From a virus: 47,948 nucleotides of DNA. The notes beneath the pieces are model-generated. The model made no database searches. It was given only the letters and a program-made list of their open reading frames with translations, and was not told the DNA's origin. Shown in pieces: positions 2,964-34,954 of the stretch. The translations under genes were made by a program, and so were the position numbers. Position 1 is the first letter of the stretch. Every line of letters begins with the position of its first letter. Where the stretch lies: positions 1-47,948 of the IMG/VR virus record IMGVR_UViG_3300022602_000155; one strand, written 5' to 3'.

Positions 2964-2982
2964 TTTGCGGACCACCCGCAAA
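2964..2982 (-). promoter_or_regulatory. Leader hairpin downstream of a late promoter
   Basis: The stem TTTGCGG/CCGCAAA (7 bp, 5-base loop) begins right after the TATAAATA box in the transcribed direction, so it would form near the 5' end of the mRNA for the 2071-2907 gene. There is no T-run behind it, so it is more likely an mRNA-stabilising or translational element than a terminator. Confidence 0.4.
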
Positions 2983-2984
2983 TT

Positions 2985-2992
2985 TATTTATA
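2985..2992 (-). promoter_or_regulatory. Late promoter, exact TATAAATA
   Basis: An exact match to the T4 late-promoter core on the minus strand, 78 bases upstream of the ATG at 2907. The TAA stop of the upstream gene (2988-2990) is embedded in the box. It is the clearest late promoter in the window. Confidence 0.75.
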
Positions 2993-3209
2993 CCGGCACT
3001 TCTACCAGTTGAAAAATTCTCCAATCTCTACGATCGGCTCGTTTGTTTTTCTTATCTTGTTCTTGCACATACTTCAAGAAGTTTTGAGCTTGTTCCATAG
3101 TACCGTAGAAGTGTTCGTTGCCATAAGCATAGCAACCTACTGAGCCGCTTTCGCCTTCCCAGTAGTGTCCTACAGCATAGTTAAATTTTTTGGCTTGTTT
3201 CTTTGCCAT
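2988..3209 (-). CDS. Small protein of unknown function
   Basis: A 73-residue basic protein (MAKKQAKKFNYAVGHYWEGE...), rich in Tyr and Gly in the middle and Lys/Arg near the C-terminus. It looks like a compact alpha/beta fold, but no motif is recognised. It overlaps the end of the preceding 59-residue gene by 29 bases, so it is co-translated with the groES operon. The stop codon lies within the late promoter of the next gene. Confidence 0.6.
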   Translation of the reverse strand: MAKKQAKKFNYAVGHYWEGESGSVGCYAYGNEHFYGTMEQAQNFLKYVQEQDKKNKRADRRDWRIFQLVEVPV

Positions 3210-3360
3210 TTTTAATACTCTTTATTTCTTTTTTGATTATGCGTAACGCTTCTGCTTGCCTAATTTTGGTAAACTCGTAAGCAGGGCCAAAATCAATTTC
3301 TGGATCAGCAATAAGTTCTTCCAGGCTTTCTTTAAGTTTGATAGCTTCTTCTAGTGTCAT
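3181..3360 (-). CDS. Small helical protein, 59 residues
   Basis: An open frame from the ATG at 3360 to TAA at 3181 encodes 59 residues (MTLEEAIKLKESLEELIADP...). It is almost entirely charged helix, with no catalytic motif. The ATG overlaps the TGA of groES (ATGA) and its 3' end overlaps the next gene by 29 bases. This fills what would otherwise be a 150-base hole in a tight operon, and the tight coupling is the main support. Function unknown. Confidence 0.65.
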   Translation of the reverse strand: MTLEEAIKLKESLEELIADPEIDFGPAYEFTKIRQAEALRIIKKEIKSIKNGKETSQKI

Positions 3361-3641
3361 TCTTCTAATACTGCAAAAACGTCTTCTTCTTTAAGCATGA
3401 TCAGATCATCGCCGTTGATTTTAATCGGGATTCCTTTTTTAACATCATAAAGAACTACATCGCCCTCGTTGATATCCATAGGGATCGGTTCACCTGTTGT
3501 AGATTCACGACCTGGACCAACTCCAATTACTGTTCCTTTGTGAGTCTTTTCTTCGCCTGTGTGTGCAAAGATAATACCCCCAGACGACTTAGCGTCGACA
3601 ATAATTTGTTTAATTAATACTCTATCTGCTTTTACTTTCAT
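3357..3641 (-). CDS. groES: Co-chaperonin GroES (Cpn10)
   Basis: A 94-residue protein of normal GroES length. It starts MKVKADRVLIKQ, has a glycine-rich mobile loop (SSGGIIFAHTGEEKTHKGTVIGVGPG, about residues 19-44) that docks on GroEL, then the GDVVLYD and ILxxED-like strands of the family. It forms a heptameric lid for the host GroEL chamber; T4 uses gp31 in this role for capsid folding. Here it heads an operon directly after a tRNA. The loop replaces the usual IVL-type tripeptide with IIF, close to the bacterial form. Phage use for virion protein folding is inference. Confidence 0.92.
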   Translation of the reverse strand: MKVKADRVLIKQIIVDAKSSGGIIFAHTGEEKTHKGTVIGVGPGRESTTGEPIPMDINEGDVVLYDVKKGIPIKINGDDLIMLKEEDVFAVLEE

Positions 3642-3652
3642 AGTTTTCCTTT

Positions 3653-3727
3653 TGGTGCGTCTGACAGGAATCGAACCTGCTGTCTCGGGTTTTAGAAGCC
3701 CTTGCTATACCATTCAGCCTCAGACGC
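3653..3727 (-). tRNA. tRNA with anticodon CTA by position (possible amber suppressor)
   Basis: A 75-nt cloverleaf with encoded CCA. Acceptor GCGTCTG/CAGACGC is perfect; D stem GCTG/TAGC with a GG-containing loop; T stem GCAGG/CCTGT with loop TTCGATT; 5-nt variable loop. Counting from the fixed arms puts TTCTAAA in the anticodon loop, hence anticodon CTA, which reads UAG. The anticodon stem is weak: three G-C pairs flanked by an A-G and a C-A mismatch. A one-base shift would give TCT (Arg) but destroys the stem. It lies 12 bases upstream of groES and is probably processed from the same transcript. Confidence 0.85.
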
Positions 3728-6796: not shown

Positions 6797-7033
6797 TTAG
6801 TATAATTTTTTAGGTAATTGTTGTTCGCGAAGCTTCTTGCGCCAACGTGCTTTGGCCGCACCTTTTTTACGCTTGCGTTCGGTAGTAGGCTTTTCGTAAA
6901 ACTGTTTAGATAATACATCTAATAATAGATTACTGTCATCTACTTTGCGTTTGAGTTTACGCAAGGCAACACTAACGTTGCCGTCTTTTACTTCAACTGA
7001 TAATCCCTTAGGGCCTTTATTTTGTCTTTGCAT
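6797..7033 (-). CDS. rpsU: Ribosomal protein S21 (bS21) homologue
   Basis: A 78-residue basic protein with the bS21 core: VALRKLKRKVDDSNLL, then FYEKPTTERKRKKGAAKARWRKKLREQQLPKKLY. The LPKKLY ending resembles betaproteobacterial S21. S21 sits near the Shine-Dalgarno/anti-SD helix of the 30S subunit and aids initiation, so a phage version could redirect ribosomes to phage mRNA (inference; phage S21 proteins are known from aquatic phages). The start overlaps the clpX stop by 17 bases. Confidence 0.93.
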   Translation of the reverse strand: MQRQNKGPKGLSVEVKDGNVSVALRKLKRKVDDSNLLLDVLSKQFYEKPTTERKRKKGAAKARWRKKLREQQLPKKLY

Positions 7034-8255
7034 TCTCTATCTTATCAAAAATTAAAGTGGCCGGTTTTCCTTCCACTGCTTCTTTACTTATCACAATTTT
7101 GGATAAACCGCGTACTTTTAAATCTACGGCATCAAATTGGTAAGGCAAGAGTATCTTTTCAATAACACTTTTAAGGCCACGAGCATTGGTTTCTAAATCT
7201 TTGGTCTTTTGGCTAATTGCTTCTAAGGCAGAATCTTCAAATTCTAATTCAATTCCATCTAGTTCAAACATATACTGGGACTGTTTAATAAGACTATTTT
7301 TAGGCTCTTTTAGCACTTGTACCAGTTGAGCAATGCTTAACGCTTCTACACTAACTATACTGCCAAAACGACCAACAAATTCCGGAATTAATCCGTAGCT
7401 GATAAGATCTTTTGTAGTAACTTCTTTATACAAGTCACCTTTTTGTCCTGAATCTTTTAATTGCGATCCAAAGCCAATAGAGCTTTTACTAGTTCTACGT
7501 TCTACAACCTTATCCAATCCTACAAATGCTCCGCCAACAATAAACAAGATATGACTTGTATCAATTTCGTTCATGTTGCCTTTTGGATGCTTACGCTTCT
7601 CTCCATTAGGAACAGTTACAACACTTCCCTCTACCATTTTAAGTAGAGCCTGTTGAACACCTTCGCCACTTACGTCACGAGTAATACTGACACTTTCACC
7701 CTTGCGAGCAATTTTGTCAATTTCGTCGATATAAACGATCCCCTTTTGAGCTCGTTCAATATCTCCGTCAGCCGCATTAATCAAACGTACTAGCACACTT
7801 TCAACGTCATCGCCGACATAGCCTGCTTCAGTAAGTCCGGTGGCATCGCAAATAGCAAATGGGATATCAAGATACTGTGCTAGTTTTTTAACCAGCATGG
7901 TTTTACCGCATCCAGTAGGACCCATCATTAGCACGTTGGTCTTTTCTAGCTCAATATCCTTGCGTGGATTATTGATACGTTTAAAGTGTTGGCATACTGC
8001 TACACTTAAATTGATCTTAGCTTCATCTTGTCCGATAACATACTCGTCGAGATATTCTTTGATTTTTACAGGATTAAATGCCTGTTTAAATTCTTCTCCT
8101 GGAAATCTTTTTACCTTGTCGTCTTTGAGTATATCAGCACATAGATCAACACAATCATTGCAAATAGCAATATCGTCCCCACCGACAATTAGTTTTTCAA
8201 CATCTTGTTTGCTTTTGCCGCAAAAATTACAGCATTGATCCTTTTGTTTGGTCAT
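7017..8255 (-). CDS. clpX: ClpX AAA+ unfoldase
   Basis: A 412-residue, apparently full-length ClpX. The zinc domain has CNFC (C9, C12) and CNDC (C32, C35). Walker A is GPTGCGKT (112-119), the pore loop is GYVGDD, Walker B is IVYIDEIDKI, and the ClpP-docking IGF loop is present (SSIGFGSQ). It unfolds tagged proteins, including those ending LAA, and feeds them to ClpP; no clpP is seen here, so host ClpP would be the partner. It overlaps the S21 gene downstream and the 136-residue gene upstream. The same genome encodes a tmRNA with an ALAA tag, a plausible substrate source. Confidence 0.97.
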   Translation of the reverse strand: MTKQKDQCCNFCGKSKQDVEKLIVGGDDIAICNDCVDLCADILKDDKVKRFPGEEFKQAFNPVKIKEYLDEYVIGQDEAKINLSVAVCQHFKRINNPRKDIELEKTNVLMMGPTGCGKTMLVKKLAQYLDIPFAICDATGLTEAGYVGDDVESVLVRLINAADGDIERAQKGIVYIDEIDKIARKGESVSITRDVSGEGVQQALLKMVEGSVVTVPNGEKRKHPKGNMNEIDTSHILFIVGGAFVGLDKVVERRTSKSSIGFGSQLKDSGQKGDLYKEVTTKDLISYGLIPEFVGRFGSIVSVEALSIAQLVQVLKEPKNSLIKQSQYMFELDGIELEFEDSALEAISQKTKDLETNARGLKSVIEKILLPYQFDAVDLKVRGLSKIVISKEAVEGKPATLIFDKIENAKTK

Positions 8256-8637
8256 GAAGTGCTTTCTCTAAAAATTCGGTGATAGAATCGACTGCATTAT
8301 TGTTAATGTGTTCAGCGATTGACTTGATGTGTGGGTTTGTGGTTTTATAGTATACATTCGGTTTACTTAAAATGTAAGACATCATTACAGTACTTACATC
8401 GGGTAAATTGTCCAAATTAAAGTATACATTATTACTTACCCCAACGGCATGTAATAGCCATTGTATTTCAGGTTCACCTAAAAAGTAATAGACATTTAGA
8501 TTAATATCTTTTAGATTTTCAGATAGCCAGTTGCTAGAGATATCTTGATCTTTATCACTAGGGTTCATGAACATTACTGATACATTAGAATTCTCAAATA
8601 TATCAGGAGGGGTTATTAGAGTTATCTTTGCTGTCAT
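8227..8637 (-). CDS. Phage protein of unknown function
   Basis: A 136-residue alpha/beta protein (MTAKITLITPPDIFENSNVS...). It alternates strands (ITLITPP, VSVMFM, VYYFLG) with helices, somewhat like a Rossmann-type layout, but has no nucleotide-binding glycine motif. The C-terminal helix ends EFLEKALHDQTK. It overlaps clpX by 29 bases and follows the membrane protein gene directly, so it belongs to the same operon. Function unknown. Confidence 0.6.
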   Translation of the reverse strand: MTAKITLITPPDIFENSNVSVMFMNPSDKDQDISSNWLSENLKDINLNVYYFLGEPEIQWLLHAVGVSNNVYFNLDNLPDVSTVMMSYILSKPNVYYKTTNPHIKSIAEHINNNAVDSITEFLEKALHDQTKGSML

Positions 8638-12247: not shown

Positions 12248-13216
12248 TTATTTATTAATCTTTTCGAGAACAGAATCAACTAATGGTTTCCACTCGTTTT
12301 CACGATTAATAACATATTCTTGGTATTTTGTAGGTCCTTCAATCTTTGGGTATTCTAGCAAATTTGCTTCGTAAACTTTACGAACTGTGTTAGACTGTAC
12401 TGCTTTGGTAAATTCTCTTCGATACCACTCGATTACATCAGGCGGTGTTCCTTTAGGTAAAAGCAATCCCCATGTCCCAACAATATCAAATTTTGGTAAA
12501 ACTGAACTTATAGTAGGAACATTAGGAAATTGTTTAATTTTACCCTTGCTAGAAATAGCAATAATATTAACTTTATGATCTAAATACATGCCCTGGGCGA
12601 TTAGGGCAGGGATAATAGCGTAACGTACATTTCCGCTAATAACATCTGTTAAGGCATCAACCGGACCTTTATAGTCTACTCTGACTATTCCGGTCCTGCC
12701 CTCTACAAAATTTAATCTAGATCTTAATGTTTCATACACAATCCTTGCGCCGCCAGTAGCACCAACAGAAACCTTATCGTATTTTAAAGTTTCTAAAAAT
12801 TCTGCAGGGGTTTTAACTGGATCTTTAATGTTTGCAACAATAGCAAACGGACTTTGTGCGGCCAAAAACGGATATTCAAAACTATCTGTAGTATATGGTT
12901 TATTTGGCATAGCAATTTTGTCCATTGCTGTCAAGCCAGGAATAGATGCCATTGTTACAGAATACCCATCAGCAGGGCGTCTTTGTAATTCCATAGTACC
13001 AATTACTCCACCGACACCTGCGTGATTAGTAACTATAAATTTTGCACCTGTGTTTTTTTCTACTTCTAATGCTAATGCTCGAAATGCCAATTCATTAACA
13101 CTACCCGGAGTATGAGCCATTACTCCTTCTATCGGCTTTGTTGGTTCCCACGCAAATGCCAGCGCAGGAACTAATAATACAATACTAACTAAACGCTGGA
13201 AAAATGTCTGTGCCAT
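12248..13216 (-). CDS. Bug/TctC-type periplasmic binding protein
   Basis: A 322-residue protein with a Sec signal peptide (about 1-22, ending ALAFA). It follows the tripartite tricarboxylate transporter receptor (Bug) pattern: NHAGVGGVIG near residue 65, then DGY, and LLLPKGTPPDVIEWYR toward the C-terminus. These proteins bind carboxylates in the periplasm and are greatly expanded in Burkholderiales. No TctA/TctB membrane subunits are seen. A phage copy could feed a host transporter or act as a scavenger or decoy in the periplasm (inference). It lies between the two diiron paralogues. Confidence 0.88.
   Translation of the reverse strand: MAQTFFQRLVSIVLLVPALAFAWEPTKPIEGVMAHTPGSVNELAFRALALEVEKNTGAKFIVTNHAGVGGVIGTMELQRRPADGYSVTMASIPGLTAMDKIAMPNKPYTTDSFEYPFLAAQSPFAIVANIKDPVKTPAEFLETLKYDKVSVGATGGARIVYETLRSRLNFVEGRTGIVRVDYKGPVDALTDVISGNVRYAIIPALIAQGMYLDHKVNIIAISSKGKIKQFPNVPTISSVLPKFDIVGTWGLLLPKGTPPDVIEWYRREFTKAVQSNTVRKVYEANLLEYPKIEGPTKYQEYVINRENEWKPLVDSVLEKINK
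12249..12256 (-). promoter_or_regulatory. Late box AATAAATA overlapping the stop of the Bug gene
   Basis: The minus strand reads AATAAATA, overlapping the TAA stop (12248-12250). It is 39 bases upstream of the diiron gene starting at 12210, a reasonable late-promoter distance. Confidence 0.5.
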
Positions 13217-15676: not shown

Positions 15677-15903
15677 TCTATCACCTTTCGTCCCCATTGG
15701 ACTAAATTCCACACTCTATCGTGGATAAAAAATGCTATTGTGTTGACTGTAAATTGACACACTAGCACTACGGTAGCAGTCTTTGCCGCATCGTAACCTA
15801 GGCTCGCTAGATAATAAACTATAAGAGCCGTAATAACTCCTCCTATGAATTTCCAGCAAACTCCTTTGACAAGACTTCTCATCTTAGTTTCATAAAACTT
15901 CAT
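15673..15903 (-). CDS. DUF2061 membrane protein, copy 1
   Basis: A 76-residue protein with two membrane spans. The family signature is visible: MRSLVKGVCWKFIGGVITAL at the N-terminus and FFIHDRVWNLVQWGRKVIE at the C-terminus (yHeRvWnki.WGr in the family). The function of DUF2061 is unknown; it occurs next to sulfur- and sulfate-related genes in some bacteria. It overlaps both neighbours by four bases. A second copy is at 22942-23166, in each case next to a PP-loop/FYDS gene set. Confidence 0.8.
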   Translation of the reverse strand: MKFYETKMRSLVKGVCWKFIGGVITALIVYYLASLGYDAAKTATVVLVCQFTVNTIAFFIHDRVWNLVQWGRKVIE

Positions 15904-16922
15904 TTAAAATCCCTCATGTATAAATTAGTACCGTCTTCTAATAACATAACCCATTGCTTATCTAAAATATGATAATGCGATGTTTGAATAATTTTATTCA
16001 TCGGATATGAATCCGACTTCATATAATTCTTTAAAAATAACTTTGTTGAATACTTATAAGTTTTAGGATCAGCATTTAAAAATTTAGGCTCATAGTTGCC
16101 CAAACTCCATTTTTGGAAATCAACATATCCATAAAAATTGATTATCCTACTTGCAACATCTTTATCAATGTTACGCATCCTATTAGTACGAGCCATTTGC
16201 CATTTACAGTTTAATTCTACAAAACTTAAAAAGTCCGGAACGGTATATAACTCAAAGCCCGGCCAATTAGGAAGTACTTGCTCAATCAATTCAACTTGTT
16301 TATTAGATATAAAATCTTGCCACGGCATTGAAAATTGATCAGGAGTTAAACTTTGATATCTACCATACAGTTGGTCACCTAGCATCCCAGTGACAATCAA
16401 TCCATCCCCGAACTTGGGACTGACGATCGGTGTTGTTAAACTATATTCTATATTGTTACCTTTTATATAGGTATCAAACAGAGAACCCGATTCTAAAATT
16501 GAATTATAATTACAAAATACTTTTAACTTCGACGGACCGGCAACTTCTAATAAAGAAAAGAATACAGCGGTACTATCTAATCCGCCACTCCAGGAAATAT
16601 TAATTGTTTTACCATCAGCAAGTTTAACAATATCTTCAGCAGTTTCTAAACAGATATCTTTAAATGTTTTATTAAATTTAGGATCAACTGTTGGGAGAGG
16701 TTCCCAGTCGCTCATTTTTAAATAATGCGGTATAGTTCTAGTTCTGTCTTGCCATGCACTCATGTTTCCTTGAGACATTTTAGTATCTTGAAACTTCCAC
16801 GGTTCTAGATCTAACTCTTGATAGATAGGCAACCATTTATCAAAATCCTCTGATTTAAATTTTTCTAAACTAGGACTATTGATAAGTTGATTTAATCTAT
16901 TAACTAGTAAATTTACTATCAT
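15900..16922 (-). CDS. Asparagine-synthase-like PP-loop enzyme, copy 1
   Basis: A 340-residue protein, starting at the ATG at 16922 that overlaps the upstream TGA (ATGA) rather than at 16934. The ATP-PPi loop SWSGGLDSTAVFF lies near residue 112, and GDQLYG near 175 is typical of AsnB synthetase domains. The N-terminal glutaminase domain of AsnB is missing and replaced by about 100 residues shared with the copy at 20690 (IPHYLKM). It probably activates a carboxylate by adenylation and forms an amide. Ammonia may come from the GATase at 10897. The product is unknown. Confidence 0.8.
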   Translation of the reverse strand: MIVNLLVNRLNQLINSPSLEKFKSEDFDKWLPIYQELDLEPWKFQDTKMSQGNMSAWQDRTRTIPHYLKMSDWEPLPTVDPKFNKTFKDICLETAEDIVKLADGKTINISWSGGLDSTAVFFSLLEVAGPSKLKVFCNYNSILESGSLFDTYIKGNNIEYSLTTPIVSPKFGDGLIVTGMLGDQLYGRYQSLTPDQFSMPWQDFISNKQVELIEQVLPNWPGFELYTVPDFLSFVELNCKWQMARTNRMRNIDKDVASRIINFYGYVDFQKWSLGNYEPKFLNADPKTYKYSTKLFLKNYMKSDSYPMNKIIQTSHYHILDKQWVMLLEDGTNLYMRDFK

Positions 16923-17251
16923 AACTGATTCCATGGTGTAAAAAAATCAATATTTTTTTCTGGATAAGGTCTTATTTTCCAAGAGCCTTTAAAATCAGTA
17001 GCAATGATAAATTCCTTATTTTTTATAATTCTATCTTTGTTATCGTGTACATACTGAATATCTGATGCACTACTTTGAATTAATGTTTCGGGAATTAAAA
17101 TTTCGTAACTTTCTGTAAAATTTACAAATGCTAGATCATCTGTTGAATCATACCAAAAGATTTCTTTTAATGTTAGTAAATTTAACTGCGTATACGAATA
17201 TGTAGGAGCATGGGGTATGTGCCATACCCAACCCTTGATTGTTGGTTCCAT
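16919..17251 (-). CDS. FYDS-type small protein, copy 1
   Basis: A 110-residue protein. The segment LLTLKEIFWYDSTDDLAFVN then ILIPETLIQ and, near the end, IIATDFKGSWKIRPY aligns by eye with the 92-residue protein at 22667-22945 (TIKDYFFYDS, LIVPASHV, IIDFRTKSETWRF). No known family is recognised. Each copy lies close to a PP-loop enzyme and a DUF2061 gene, so it may be a subunit or carrier of that system. It starts 22 bases beyond the tmRNA terminator. Confidence 0.6.
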   Translation of the reverse strand: MEPTIKGWVWHIPHAPTYSYTQLNLLTLKEIFWYDSTDDLAFVNFTESYEILIPETLIQSSASDIQYVHDNKDRIIKNKEFIIATDFKGSWKIRPYPEKNIDFFTPWNQL

Positions 17252-17272
17252 AGTACTATTATATAGTCAAAA

Positions 17273-17295
17273 CAAAAGGCCGTAAAGGCCTTTTG
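17273..17295 (-). terminator. Terminator hairpin after the tmRNA
   Basis: CAAAAGGCC/GGCCTTTTG, 9 bp with a 5-base loop. On the minus strand the stem ends in TTTTG and is followed by TTTTGACTATATAAT. It fits an intrinsic terminator closing the tmRNA transcript. Confidence 0.75.
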
Positions 17296-17600
17296 GTTAT
17301 TTTCTGTTACGAGGTATAACTACCCTAAGCGGTGTTTAGGCCGCTAATGCGAACATTTCGTCGTTTGCGTTTACGTTATTTGCTTGATTTAGAGTCATCG
17401 CCTACTCTGTTGCCTCTTTCGCTATCTCACCATGTCGAAACCTTGTCATCCCCATCAAAAGCATTCTGAGCCGAATCATGTGCGTCCACAATCTTGTTCA
17501 AAGTGTTTATACACTTACTACAGAGATGCTTTTGGTGGAGATGCCGGGAATCGAACCCGGGTCCACAATGCCTTCACTACAAAGGAATTACAACAATTAC
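17296..17600 (-). ncRNA. ssrA: Circularly permuted (two-piece) tmRNA precursor
   Basis: Read on the minus strand, the tRNA-like 3' half comes first: T arm and acceptor strand CATCTCC, then ACCA, ending at 17533. A spacer of about 79 nt (17454-17532) follows, then the tRNA-like 5' half GGGGATGACAAGGTTTCGAC (from 17453) and the tag frame. GGGGATG (17453-17447) pairs with CATCTCC (17543-17537) to make the acceptor stem, with one G-U. The spacer ends are complementary (AAAAGCAT / ATGCTTTT), so it can be cut out to leave two pieces. This order is known from alphaproteobacterial, cyanobacterial and some betaproteobacterial ssrA genes. The 5' boundary of the acceptor piece is approximate. Confidence 0.92.
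17336..17368 (-). other. tmRNA tag-peptide reading frame (ANDEMFALAA)
   Basis: GCA (17366-17368) to TAA (17336-17338) encodes ANDEMFALAA. The resume codon is preceded by UAAAC, with A at -4 as in well-studied tmRNAs. An upstream in-frame GCA (17381) would add ANNVN but has a poorer context. The ALAA end is the ClpXP degron, and ANDE-FALAA resembles betaproteobacterial tags. Confidence 0.88.
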
Positions 17601-17702
17601 TTACTTTCTTCTTTTAGCACCGCGACTAGCCATAGTCTTTAAACTCTTTGGCCTAGGCTTTTTAGGGCCTTTTAAAATTCTACTAATACGTCTTGCACCC
17701 AT
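17601..17702 (-). CDS. Very basic 33-residue peptide
   Basis: The ATG at 17702 has AAGGTGG at good spacing, and the frame runs to TAA at 17601, encoding MGARRISRILKGPKKPRPKS and 13 more residues. It has 14 Lys/Arg residues and no acidic ones, like an RNA- or DNA-binding tail. It ends exactly where the tmRNA acceptor region begins and follows a pseudoknot-capable leader. It might bind the adjacent RNAs or be a small structural DNA-binding peptide; no family is recognised. Confidence 0.6.
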   Translation of the reverse strand: MGARRISRILKGPKKPRPKSLKTMASRGAKRRK

Positions 17703-17723
17703 AATAACCACCTTTATGTTAAA

Positions 17724-17809
17724 GAGGGATCGCTGGTTACCCCAATGTCCCTCACATCACGATAGGCCTCTCACCTACCCAAAATACTACGTATCTTTGC
17801 TACCAGCGA
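17724..17809 (-). ncRNA. Pseudoknot-capable structured leader RNA
   Basis: On the minus strand TCGCTGGT (17802-17809) pairs with ACCAGCGA (17730-17737), and GAGGGA (17748-17753) pairs with TCCCTC (17724-17729). The order A-B-A'-B' is an H-type pseudoknot or two alternative folds. It ends about 20 bases before the start codon of the basic peptide, the position expected for a cis-regulatory RNA. It does not match a riboswitch I know by eye. Confidence 0.5.
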
Positions 17810-17817
17810 CTTACTAT

Positions 17818-18465
17818 TTAATTCAATGGTACAAAAATCTTTGTAGTTACACTATTATACACTTTTTCTGTAATGATGTCAAATGCTAGTGATACCCTAG
17901 GTTCAGTAGAACCGTTTACATCTGTCTTGTGCATAATATAAGACGGAAACATATACATGTCGCCGGGAGAATTATTAATACCTGCCGCCACTTGAATGTT
18001 AAATGGACTAGAATAATATGTTTTGGTATTTTCTGCCTGTATGCAAAGGTTGCCTGAAACATAGGCTGTATCGGCAGGAGCACCACAGTGCGCATCGGCA
18101 TGGTTGTGAGGACCAATTTTTTGACCAGGTTGTAATACGTTTACCCAACCGTGGATGTAACATTTTTCTACAGGATATCCTAATGTAGTAACATAATCTT
18201 CGTATTGTTTAGCAATGATCTTTTTTAAATCTACCAAAGCGGGATAATCAAACTCAAACATATTATAATCCCAAAGACGAGATGTAAGCATTGTTTGATC
18301 CCAATGAGGTGGACATGTTGTTGTTTCGAATATACGTTTCTCTTCTGCCAACGCCATGTCTTTTAATTTAGCAGTTAAATCTGAGCCAATATTAACCTTA
18401 TCCAGATGTACACAAAACTCCGGTAGGAATGGAGAACTTGATTTACATTTGATATCTATAATCAT
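17818..18465 (-). CDS. 2OG-Fe(II) oxygenase-like protein, copy A
   Basis: A 215-residue double-stranded beta-helix protein. The iron ligands are probably H122-x-D124 (in GPHNHADAHCG) and H179 (FPSYIMHKTDV), with R190 (EPRVSLAFDI) as the 2-oxoglutarate binder. The layout fits the 'putative 2OG-Fe(II) oxygenase' family often carried by T4-like cyanophages. It would hydroxylate an unknown substrate. The start overlaps the radical SAM stop by four bases, so the two enzymes are coupled. Confidence 0.8.
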   Translation of the reverse strand: MIIDIKCKSSSPFLPEFCVHLDKVNIGSDLTAKLKDMALAEEKRIFETTTCPPHWDQTMLTSRLWDYNMFEFDYPALVDLKKIIAKQYEDYVTTLGYPVEKCYIHGWVNVLQPGQKIGPHNHADAHCGAPADTAYVSGNLCIQAENTKTYYSSPFNIQVAAGINNSPGDMYMFPSYIMHKTDVNGSTEPRVSLAFDIITEKVYNSVTTKIFVPLN

Positions 18466-21728: not shown

Positions 21729-22670
21729 TCAATTTAATTGAATCTTTTCCACAAGCCCCGGAGTAAAGTAATCGGCAAACGTAGTGTATAACACTTTGGT
21801 AGCATCAGCAAATCGAGCTTGTTCTTCTGCACTCATTTTATTGACTTCAATACCATCTGCTTCTGCACGAGCCTGAGTTGCTAATACATCGTCGATACTG
21901 ATACTGCGCTCATAACGTGCGGCTGTCTTAGCGGCTTCGCTGACTACGGTCTGTAGTTTTGGAGTAAGATTATCCCAGAAATTACTGCTGATTAGAATGC
22001 TTGTTAAAAATAAACTGTGTTCAGTATGATTAATAACTTTGCTAACTTTGTTGTGACCTAGAGCATAGACACGTGGATAAGTACTTTCTCCTACTGTGAC
22101 TGTTTCATCCTCTAAATTGTCAGTTAGTTCTTCTATCTCCATTGGGACTACATCGGCACCTAACACTTTGAAGGTTTCAATGGCTACTGGGCTGTAACTG
22201 GTACGAACACGAACATCACGTAAATCTTCGATACGTGATACTGTTTCGTTTCCTGGGATAATGCGGAATCCGCCTGAGTAAGTAAATGCCAATCCTTTGA
22301 TTTTTTTAGTTTGTTGTAAGCTGTCTAATAACTGTGCCCCAACTTCGCCTTCAAATACTCTGGTAGCATGATCATGATTTTTAAACAAGAATGGAAGATC
22401 TAATGCAAAGAAATCTTTATTAAGTTTTCCTAGTGTAATGGTGTACGTTTGACTCATTTCGATATTGCCGTTGTCTAGCAAATCAACTAGGCTGTGCTTG
22501 TTAGGCACGACACCGTTGTTATATTTTGCGCCATACTCGCTCATTGTCATAACTTCAATTTCTAATTCGCCAGGTGCGTTTGTATTAACTTCGTCCGCAA
22601 ATACCTTGGCCGCTCTTATGAACAGCTCAATTGGCTCGTGTGCTAATACCCATCTTACTTTCTTAGTCAT
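21729..22670 (-). CDS. DctP-like TRAP binding protein without signal peptide
   Basis: A 313-residue protein of the TRAP solute receptor fold: VRWVLAHEPIELFIRAAKVFADEVN at the N-terminus, IEMSQTYTITLGK, LDLPFLFKNHDHA, then SGGFRII and VRVRTSYSPVAIETFKVLGADVVPM, which holds the carboxylate-binding Arg region (RVR). Unlike family members it begins directly with the mature fold and has no Sec signal, so it should stay in the cytosol. No TRAP membrane subunits are present. It may be repurposed as a ligand carrier for the neighbouring synthetases (inference). Confidence 0.85.
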   Translation of the reverse strand: MTKKVRWVLAHEPIELFIRAAKVFADEVNTNAPGELEIEVMTMSEYGAKYNNGVVPNKHSLVDLLDNGNIEMSQTYTITLGKLNKDFFALDLPFLFKNHDHATRVFEGEVGAQLLDSLQQTKKIKGLAFTYSGGFRIIPGNETVSRIEDLRDVRVRTSYSPVAIETFKVLGADVVPMEIEELTDNLEDETVTVGESTYPRVYALGHNKVSKVINHTEHSLFLTSILISSNFWDNLTPKLQTVVSEAAKTAARYERSISIDDVLATQARAEADGIEVNKMSAEEQARFADATKVLYTTFADYFTPGLVEKIQLN

Positions 22671-34228: not shown

Positions 34229-34954
34229 TTACTGCGTGAGTAGTTGCTTGTACCCTTGTAGCCCTGTAGTCCAGTATTCTTCTACTTTGTTTAGCCACTG
34301 TGCTTCCCAGTATGAATATTCGTCTGGCAAAAGGTCAAATTGTTGATATTGTAGGTCTCTACTACACATAAACACAACACCTCTGCGTATATTGGTTCCA
34401 TATACTTCATTATGTGCCATAATGTACGCAGTTAATTGAATCATATAGTCATCAACCCATTCTTTCTTTTTGGGTTTATTTGTTTGCTTGTAATCCATTA
34501 CAGCAGGTTCATTGTCGTACACACCCACTAGGTCAGTTGTGCCGGAGAATAAGCCCGGATAGTATAGACTTTGTTCCATTGCCCATACTTCGTTTACTTT
34601 GCTTAATCCGTTTTCAATGATAACGTCTGCCATCTTGTTTGCTTGTACATGAACAAGATTGTTTCCTGGCATTCGTTCTAGTCCGGCTATAAAACGTTCT
34701 AGGTTGCCGTGCATTGCTGTACCTATGCCTGCGGCTTCTGTTGTTATACGCTGTGCATTTTCAGCACCTACACGTTTCTTCCACTCATTAAGATGTGTCA
34801 TATCCTTTGTAGCACTTAGGATAGTTGTAACACTAGGAAGCATTTCTCCGTCTGGAGTTTGGTAAACACGTTTACGTGTAATTGGATCGTTTACTTGTTT
34901 ACAGTTTTTGTATTGGAATCTCTCCACAAAAGGAGGCGGTGTTATGATGGTCAT
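34229..34954 (-). CDS. PD-(D/E)XK-family exonuclease (Cas4/RecB-like)
   Basis: A 241-residue protein. Nuclease motifs are GIGTAMHGNLE (motif I His), FSGTTDLVGVYDNEPAVMDYKQ (motifs II/III, D...D-Y-K) and YMIQLTAYIMAH (motif IV). These match PD-(D/E)XK exonucleases common in T4-like cyanophages. No iron-sulfur cysteines are evident. It probably processes DNA ends in replication or host DNA breakdown. Confidence 0.82.
   Translation of the reverse strand: MTIITPPPFVERFQYKNCKQVNDPITRKRVYQTPDGEMLPSVTTILSATKDMTHLNEWKKRVGAENAQRITTEAAGIGTAMHGNLERFIAGLERMPGNNLVHVQANKMADVIIENGLSKVNEVWAMEQSLYYPGLFSGTTDLVGVYDNEPAVMDYKQTNKPKKKEWVDDYMIQLTAYIMAHNEVYGTNIRRGVVFMCSRDLQYQQFDLLPDEYSYWEAQWLNKVEEYWTTGLQGYKQLLTQ

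Follow-up and report, generated by a model that had tools for sequence, protein, structure and literature searches.

Studies have shown that phages can encode transfer-messenger RNA (tmRNA, gene ssrA) as two pieces. The OM43 phage Melnitz has been described with a two-piece tmRNA, and this form accounted for 53 of the 133 unique phage tmRNA structures predicted by ARAGORN (PMC9004378). Huge phages can carry both tmRNA and SmpB (PMC7162821), and a report on phage AP-J-162 lists Clp proteins and a single tmRNA (PMC11242549). In this study, we analyzed a metagenomic virus contig of IMG/VR (IMGVR_UViG_3300022602_000155, positions 1 to 47,948; this whole stretch of 47,948 nucleotides is called the window below). 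Judged by its sequence, the window carries a circularly permuted tmRNA gene that is real, complete and phage-borne.

An earlier note, written from the letters of this DNA, had claimed that no well-described phage example of the two-piece form was known. This was wrong. Besides the published Melnitz gene (PMC9004378), two cultured phages, the Stenotrophomonas Menderavirus (Bhz51) and the Xanthomonas phage XacN1, also have the permuted form, and the permuted pattern was matched by 98 and 42 viral stretches in two spacer ranges, most of the 98-stretch set being confirmed as permuted by ARAGORN. The permuted form was detected in more than 100 viral contigs. Because two-piece phage tmRNA has been published and many viral stretches match it, it is not new, and the window gene belongs to this known kind. 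These results support the two-piece tmRNA as an ordinary, maintained gene of aquatic phages and not a curiosity.

The window resembles Melnitz in that a permuted ssrA is carried by a phage and that an RNA control element, a glutamine riboswitch, has been reported at the Melnitz gene (PMC9004378). The Melnitz ssrA was grouped with alphaproteobacterial genes (PMC9004378), whereas the window ssrA scored best with the betaproteobacterial model. The tags of Bhz51 (VAANDDSYTVRIAA) and XacN1 (ANANTFDYALAA) differ from the tag of the window, ANDEMFALAA. In the cultured jumbo phage XacN1 (L299), the permuted tmRNA was found at 2973-3393 and is unannotated in its record.

Structure of the permuted ssrA gene

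The permuted gene spans about 17602-17296 of the minus strand, with the acceptor piece first, then a spacer and then the tag piece. Its parts and flanking signals are as follows.

17533..17602, minus strand: tmRNA acceptor piece (T-arm, acceptor 3' strand, encoded CCA), from ARAGORN and Rfam; 5' end approximate
17454..17532, minus strand: intervening spacer of 79 nt with self-complementary ends, from sequence reading and folding
17296..17453, minus strand: tmRNA coding piece (acceptor 5' strand GGGGATG, tag, 3' domain), from ARAGORN and Rfam; 3' end approximate
17336..17368, minus strand: tag frame ANDEMFALAA and stop, from ARAGORN
17273..17295, minus strand: terminator-like hairpin with T tail, from sequence match
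17854..17882, minus strand: putative sigma70-type promoter TTGACA-17-TATAAT, a consensus match alone (12 of 12 consensus positions)

ARAGORN predicted a permuted tmRNA at 17245-17625 on the minus strand with the tag ANDEMFALAA. The whole model was matched for both Rfam families, with 170.3 bits (E 4.5e-53) for beta_tmRNA RF01850 and 150.9 bits for tmRNA_permuted RF04321, the gathering scores being 84 and 47 bits, respectively. The covariance-model check with the Rfam permuted models had been proposed in the earlier note, and its outcome, together with ARAGORN and the viral gene neighbourhood, bears out the claim of a phage-encoded circularly permuted tmRNA. The layout of ARAGORN, acceptor half before tag-bearing half, also agreed with what had been claimed, with the addition of the minus strand, which had not been given; the same tag was read, and the terminator expected after the tag piece was found as a hairpin with a T tail at 17295-17273.

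The acceptor stem closes across the spacer as had been described: GGGGATG (from 17453) pairs with CATCTCC, which is followed by ACCA, and the encoded CCA ends at 17533. A G3-U70 pair is present in this stem, and a G-U pair at 3-70 is a recognition feature for alanyl-tRNA synthetase (AlaRS). In related phage genes, compensatory changes on both sides together were seen in the T-stem and in the single free acceptor pair, the fixed identity of the remaining acceptor positions being a consequence of the search pattern used. The model E-value and these compensatory changes place the match beyond chance.

The spacer ends AAAAGCAT and ATGCTTTT pair with each other and prolong the acceptor stem, and the spacer stretch folded far better than shuffles (z -4.8). 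The self-complementary ends pointed out in the earlier note are therefore present, but the six bacterial permuted genes read for comparison share such ends, with spacers of 24-42 nt compared with 79 nt in the window, so the pairing is typical and nothing special. The paired spacer ends are an ordinary precursor feature, and the spacer is removed from the precursor in known permuted tmRNAs.

Association of ssrA with a phage-encoded ClpX

The window also encodes ClpX, 9 kb downstream of the tmRNA, and a small protein whose gene overlaps the start of clpX.

7017..8255, minus strand: full-length ClpX homologue of 412 aa (E 9.6e-124 to PDB 8e91 ClpX; zf-C4_ClpX and AAA_2)
8227..8637, minus strand: protein of 136 aa overlapping the clpX start, conserved with ClpX in 79 of 80 ClpX loci

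The zinc finger, Walker A/B, GYVG, RKH and [IV]GF motifs were kept across 81 ClpX sequences. The motifs needed for ATP use, for gripping the substrate and for docking to ClpP are kept in the window ClpX, which is predicted to be an unfoldase. A related ClpX was encoded by 177 viral contigs; the best 80 of these matches were taken, and 50 long records among them were picked by length. A permuted tmRNA above the cut-off was present in 36 of the 50, and in all 26 loci where ARAGORN mapped both genes, as in the window, the tmRNA lay upstream of clpX in the same orientation, at a distance of about 3.5-10 kb. ClpP was encoded in 10 of the 50 records, among them all six longer than 200 kb, and the Ser and His catalytic motifs were present in two ClpP sequences read; SmpB was found in none of the 50. 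Two contigs (317 and 158 kb) that matched the acceptor piece of the window tmRNA over a 54-nt pattern both encoded ClpX.

ANDEMFALAA is an ordinary LAA-type tag, and an [LIVM]AA ending, the kind of tag end that ClpX recognises, was seen in 21 of the 22 distinct ARAGORN tags of the ClpX-lineage loci. Long tags of 24-30 residues, such as AKANTGEVTVSGKNVKFSARTAQRQSLAV, were found in several relatives within the ssrA clade of the window (L030, L091, L305, L095, L308, L310, L106 and L163), and their frame was kept between phages though some were without the AA end. The adaptor SspB (PF04386) was detected neither in 36 related records nor in the window. An SspB-like role of the 136-aa protein was not supported, since it had no PF04386 match and its predicted fold (predicted local distance difference test score 89.7) weakly resembles another protein, nucleoside deoxyribosyltransferase.

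By analogy with known permuted tmRNAs, we infer that the window tmRNA functions in ribosome rescue and ClpXP marking. A single precursor would be cut into two base-paired pieces by host tRNA-processing enzymes and charged by host AlaRS; host SmpB, of which none was found in these phages, would bring the tmRNA to ribosomes that have stalled, and the proteins tagged there would be handed to ClpXP. The phage may bring its own ClpX to this step, and larger relatives also their own ClpP, presumably so that the rescue and clearance of truncated proteins go on during host takeover.

Several points weigh against this functional pairing. The records with ClpX were selected by length; in the window itself, which is a fragment, neither ClpP nor SmpB was found; and the ClpX zinc finger occurred in 0 of 45 viral records chosen for permuted tmRNA regardless of ClpX, a set that also took in three tmRNA-less relatives. 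It was absent from both the Bhz51 and the XacN1 records. Because of the 0 of 45, a general ClpX-tmRNA linkage across phages was rejected, and the ssrA-clpX linkage is a trait of one lineage. Shared descent within this lineage may account for the joint presence of ssrA and clpX just as well as a functional link does.

The jumbo phages Atu_ph07, Phosso, AP-J-162 and phage G also encode ClpX (identity of about 52% at most among the matches listed from the phage collection), whereas the conserved ssrA-clpX order belongs to the lineage studied here. The association with ClpX(P) is a new lead beyond the known phage tmRNA. In this one lineage, the RNA that encodes the tag is carried alongside the matching unfoldase, so that the reason for which phages keep a ribosome rescue system can be tested directly.

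Origin of the gene and rival explanations

The window encodes ribonucleotide reductase, ThyX, a CHAP endolysin, and receptor-binding and virion-type genes, and we consider it very probable that the tmRNA gene is a complete circularly permuted ssrA of a phage lineage. A prophage integrating at ssrA could instead have acquired a host copy that is now a functionless remnant, and ssrA is a common integration site whose fragments occur in prophages (PMC9004378). We believe that this is very improbable, as the gene is complete, its stems covary and its tag is intact. It also clusters with phage genes: in a quick tree with Shimodaira-Hasegawa-like approximate likelihood ratio support alone, the window ssrA fell inside an all-phage clade (99% support), apart from the six bacterial permuted genes sampled. 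Among 200 Burkholderiales genomes sampled, only 8 exceeded the permuted cut-off, of which 7 were permuted by ARAGORN, and of the other matches that were run through ARAGORN, nearly all were one-piece genes of the standard type. No integrase was seen among the window proteins scanned, which represent a part of its open reading frames (ORFs). The combination of ANDEMFALAA with a GCA resume codon was unmatched in the genome contigs searched, and a looser search for a bacterial source of the tag returned mostly one-piece tmRNAs.

The tag-less tmRNA of phage DS6A (PMC11915505) suggests that such an RNA could be a decoy or competitor, tying up the SmpB, AlaRS or ClpXP of the host instead of serving rescue. 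However, the window tmRNA retains the full tag frame, the resume-codon region and the LAA end, and [LIVM]AA ends are kept by most related phage tags, which makes a decoy very improbable. We regard it as exceedingly improbable that bacterial sequence was misjoined to a phage contig. Although the contig is metagenomic and encodes transporter binding proteins of bacterial type (TctC, DctP) close by, many independent viral contigs, some of them longer than 300 kb, show the ssrA type, leader element and ClpX neighbourhood of the window.

Structured RNA element and other features of the window

Two further features lie on the promoter side of the phage ssrA gene.

17720..17818, minus strand: structured RNA element of about 98 nt (P1, two hairpins, proposed pseudoknot), from covariation in 5 and then 24 sequences
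17601..17702, minus strand: basic ORF of 33 aa (MGARRISRILKGPKKPRPKSLKTMASRGAKRRK), from translation; it ends beside the tmRNA, and similar peptides occur in L106 and L225

The element is placed between the sigma70 consensus (17882-17854) and ssrA. In the alignment of five sequences, changes on both sides were found in 10 of 28 pairs, a number reached by 0 of 500 shuffles, and the proposed pseudoknot helix had one-sided changes alone. With a covariance model built from these five, 19 more distinct copies came up in loci of the ClpX lineage (E about 1e-7 to 0.05), each of them on the coding strand, and 91 other loci gave no copy. The 24 distinct sequences gave 153 compensated cells compared with 45 in shuffles, in an alignment that was fitted to the structure. 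Other copies lie at L254:1636-1733, L316:1736-1833 (minus strand), L317:10274-10371 and L219:3900-3999, among others.

The consensus pattern of the element was found in 57 stretches, 41 of them distinct. A gene for a small exported histidine-rich protein comes shortly after the element in 18 of the 41 (counted by eye); the others precede other genes, a tmRNA lies further on in 8 of the 41, and the element stands directly before ssrA in a few cases. Because a promoter-like sequence intervenes between element and ssrA in L254, L316, L242 and L317, the window is the locus, of five, where the element most plausibly joins the ssrA transcript.

Four members of the element were scanned against Rfam at E up to 1 or 5 with no plausible match, the sole match listed being to a long non-coding RNA model on the opposite strand (11.7 bits). 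This lack argues against a known riboswitch, and the element differs from the glutamine riboswitch at the Melnitz ssrA. On present sequence evidence, the element next to ssrA is an undescribed RNA family. We tentatively suggest, as a wider reading about which we remain somewhat doubtful, that one lineage of large aquatic phages has its own tag-and-destroy pathway bar SmpB (permuted tmRNA and ClpX, with ClpP in large members), and that in some members, including the window, a structured regulatory RNA of a new class stands before the tmRNA unit and elsewhere before small exported histidine-rich proteins.

Of 91 other viral loci with a permuted tmRNA, 45 encoded a PDDEXK exonuclease (phrog_298 type) upstream of ssrA in the same orientation, mostly no more than a few hundred bases away; the copy of the window, at 34229-34954, does not adjoin ssrA. 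Relatives of the gene at 15900-16934, downstream of the tmRNA, had no tmRNA in the stretches examined (L003-L011). A tRNA with a CTA anticodon at 3653-3727 (minus strand) is a possible amber suppressor, and XacN1 has two. The TAG recoding suggested by this tRNA was not supported, as TAG still serves as the stop codon of 7 of 69 ORFs, with only short read-through. Solute-binding transporter proteins of the TctC and DctP families are encoded at 12248-13216 and 21729-22670, both on the minus strand, and may be auxiliary genes.
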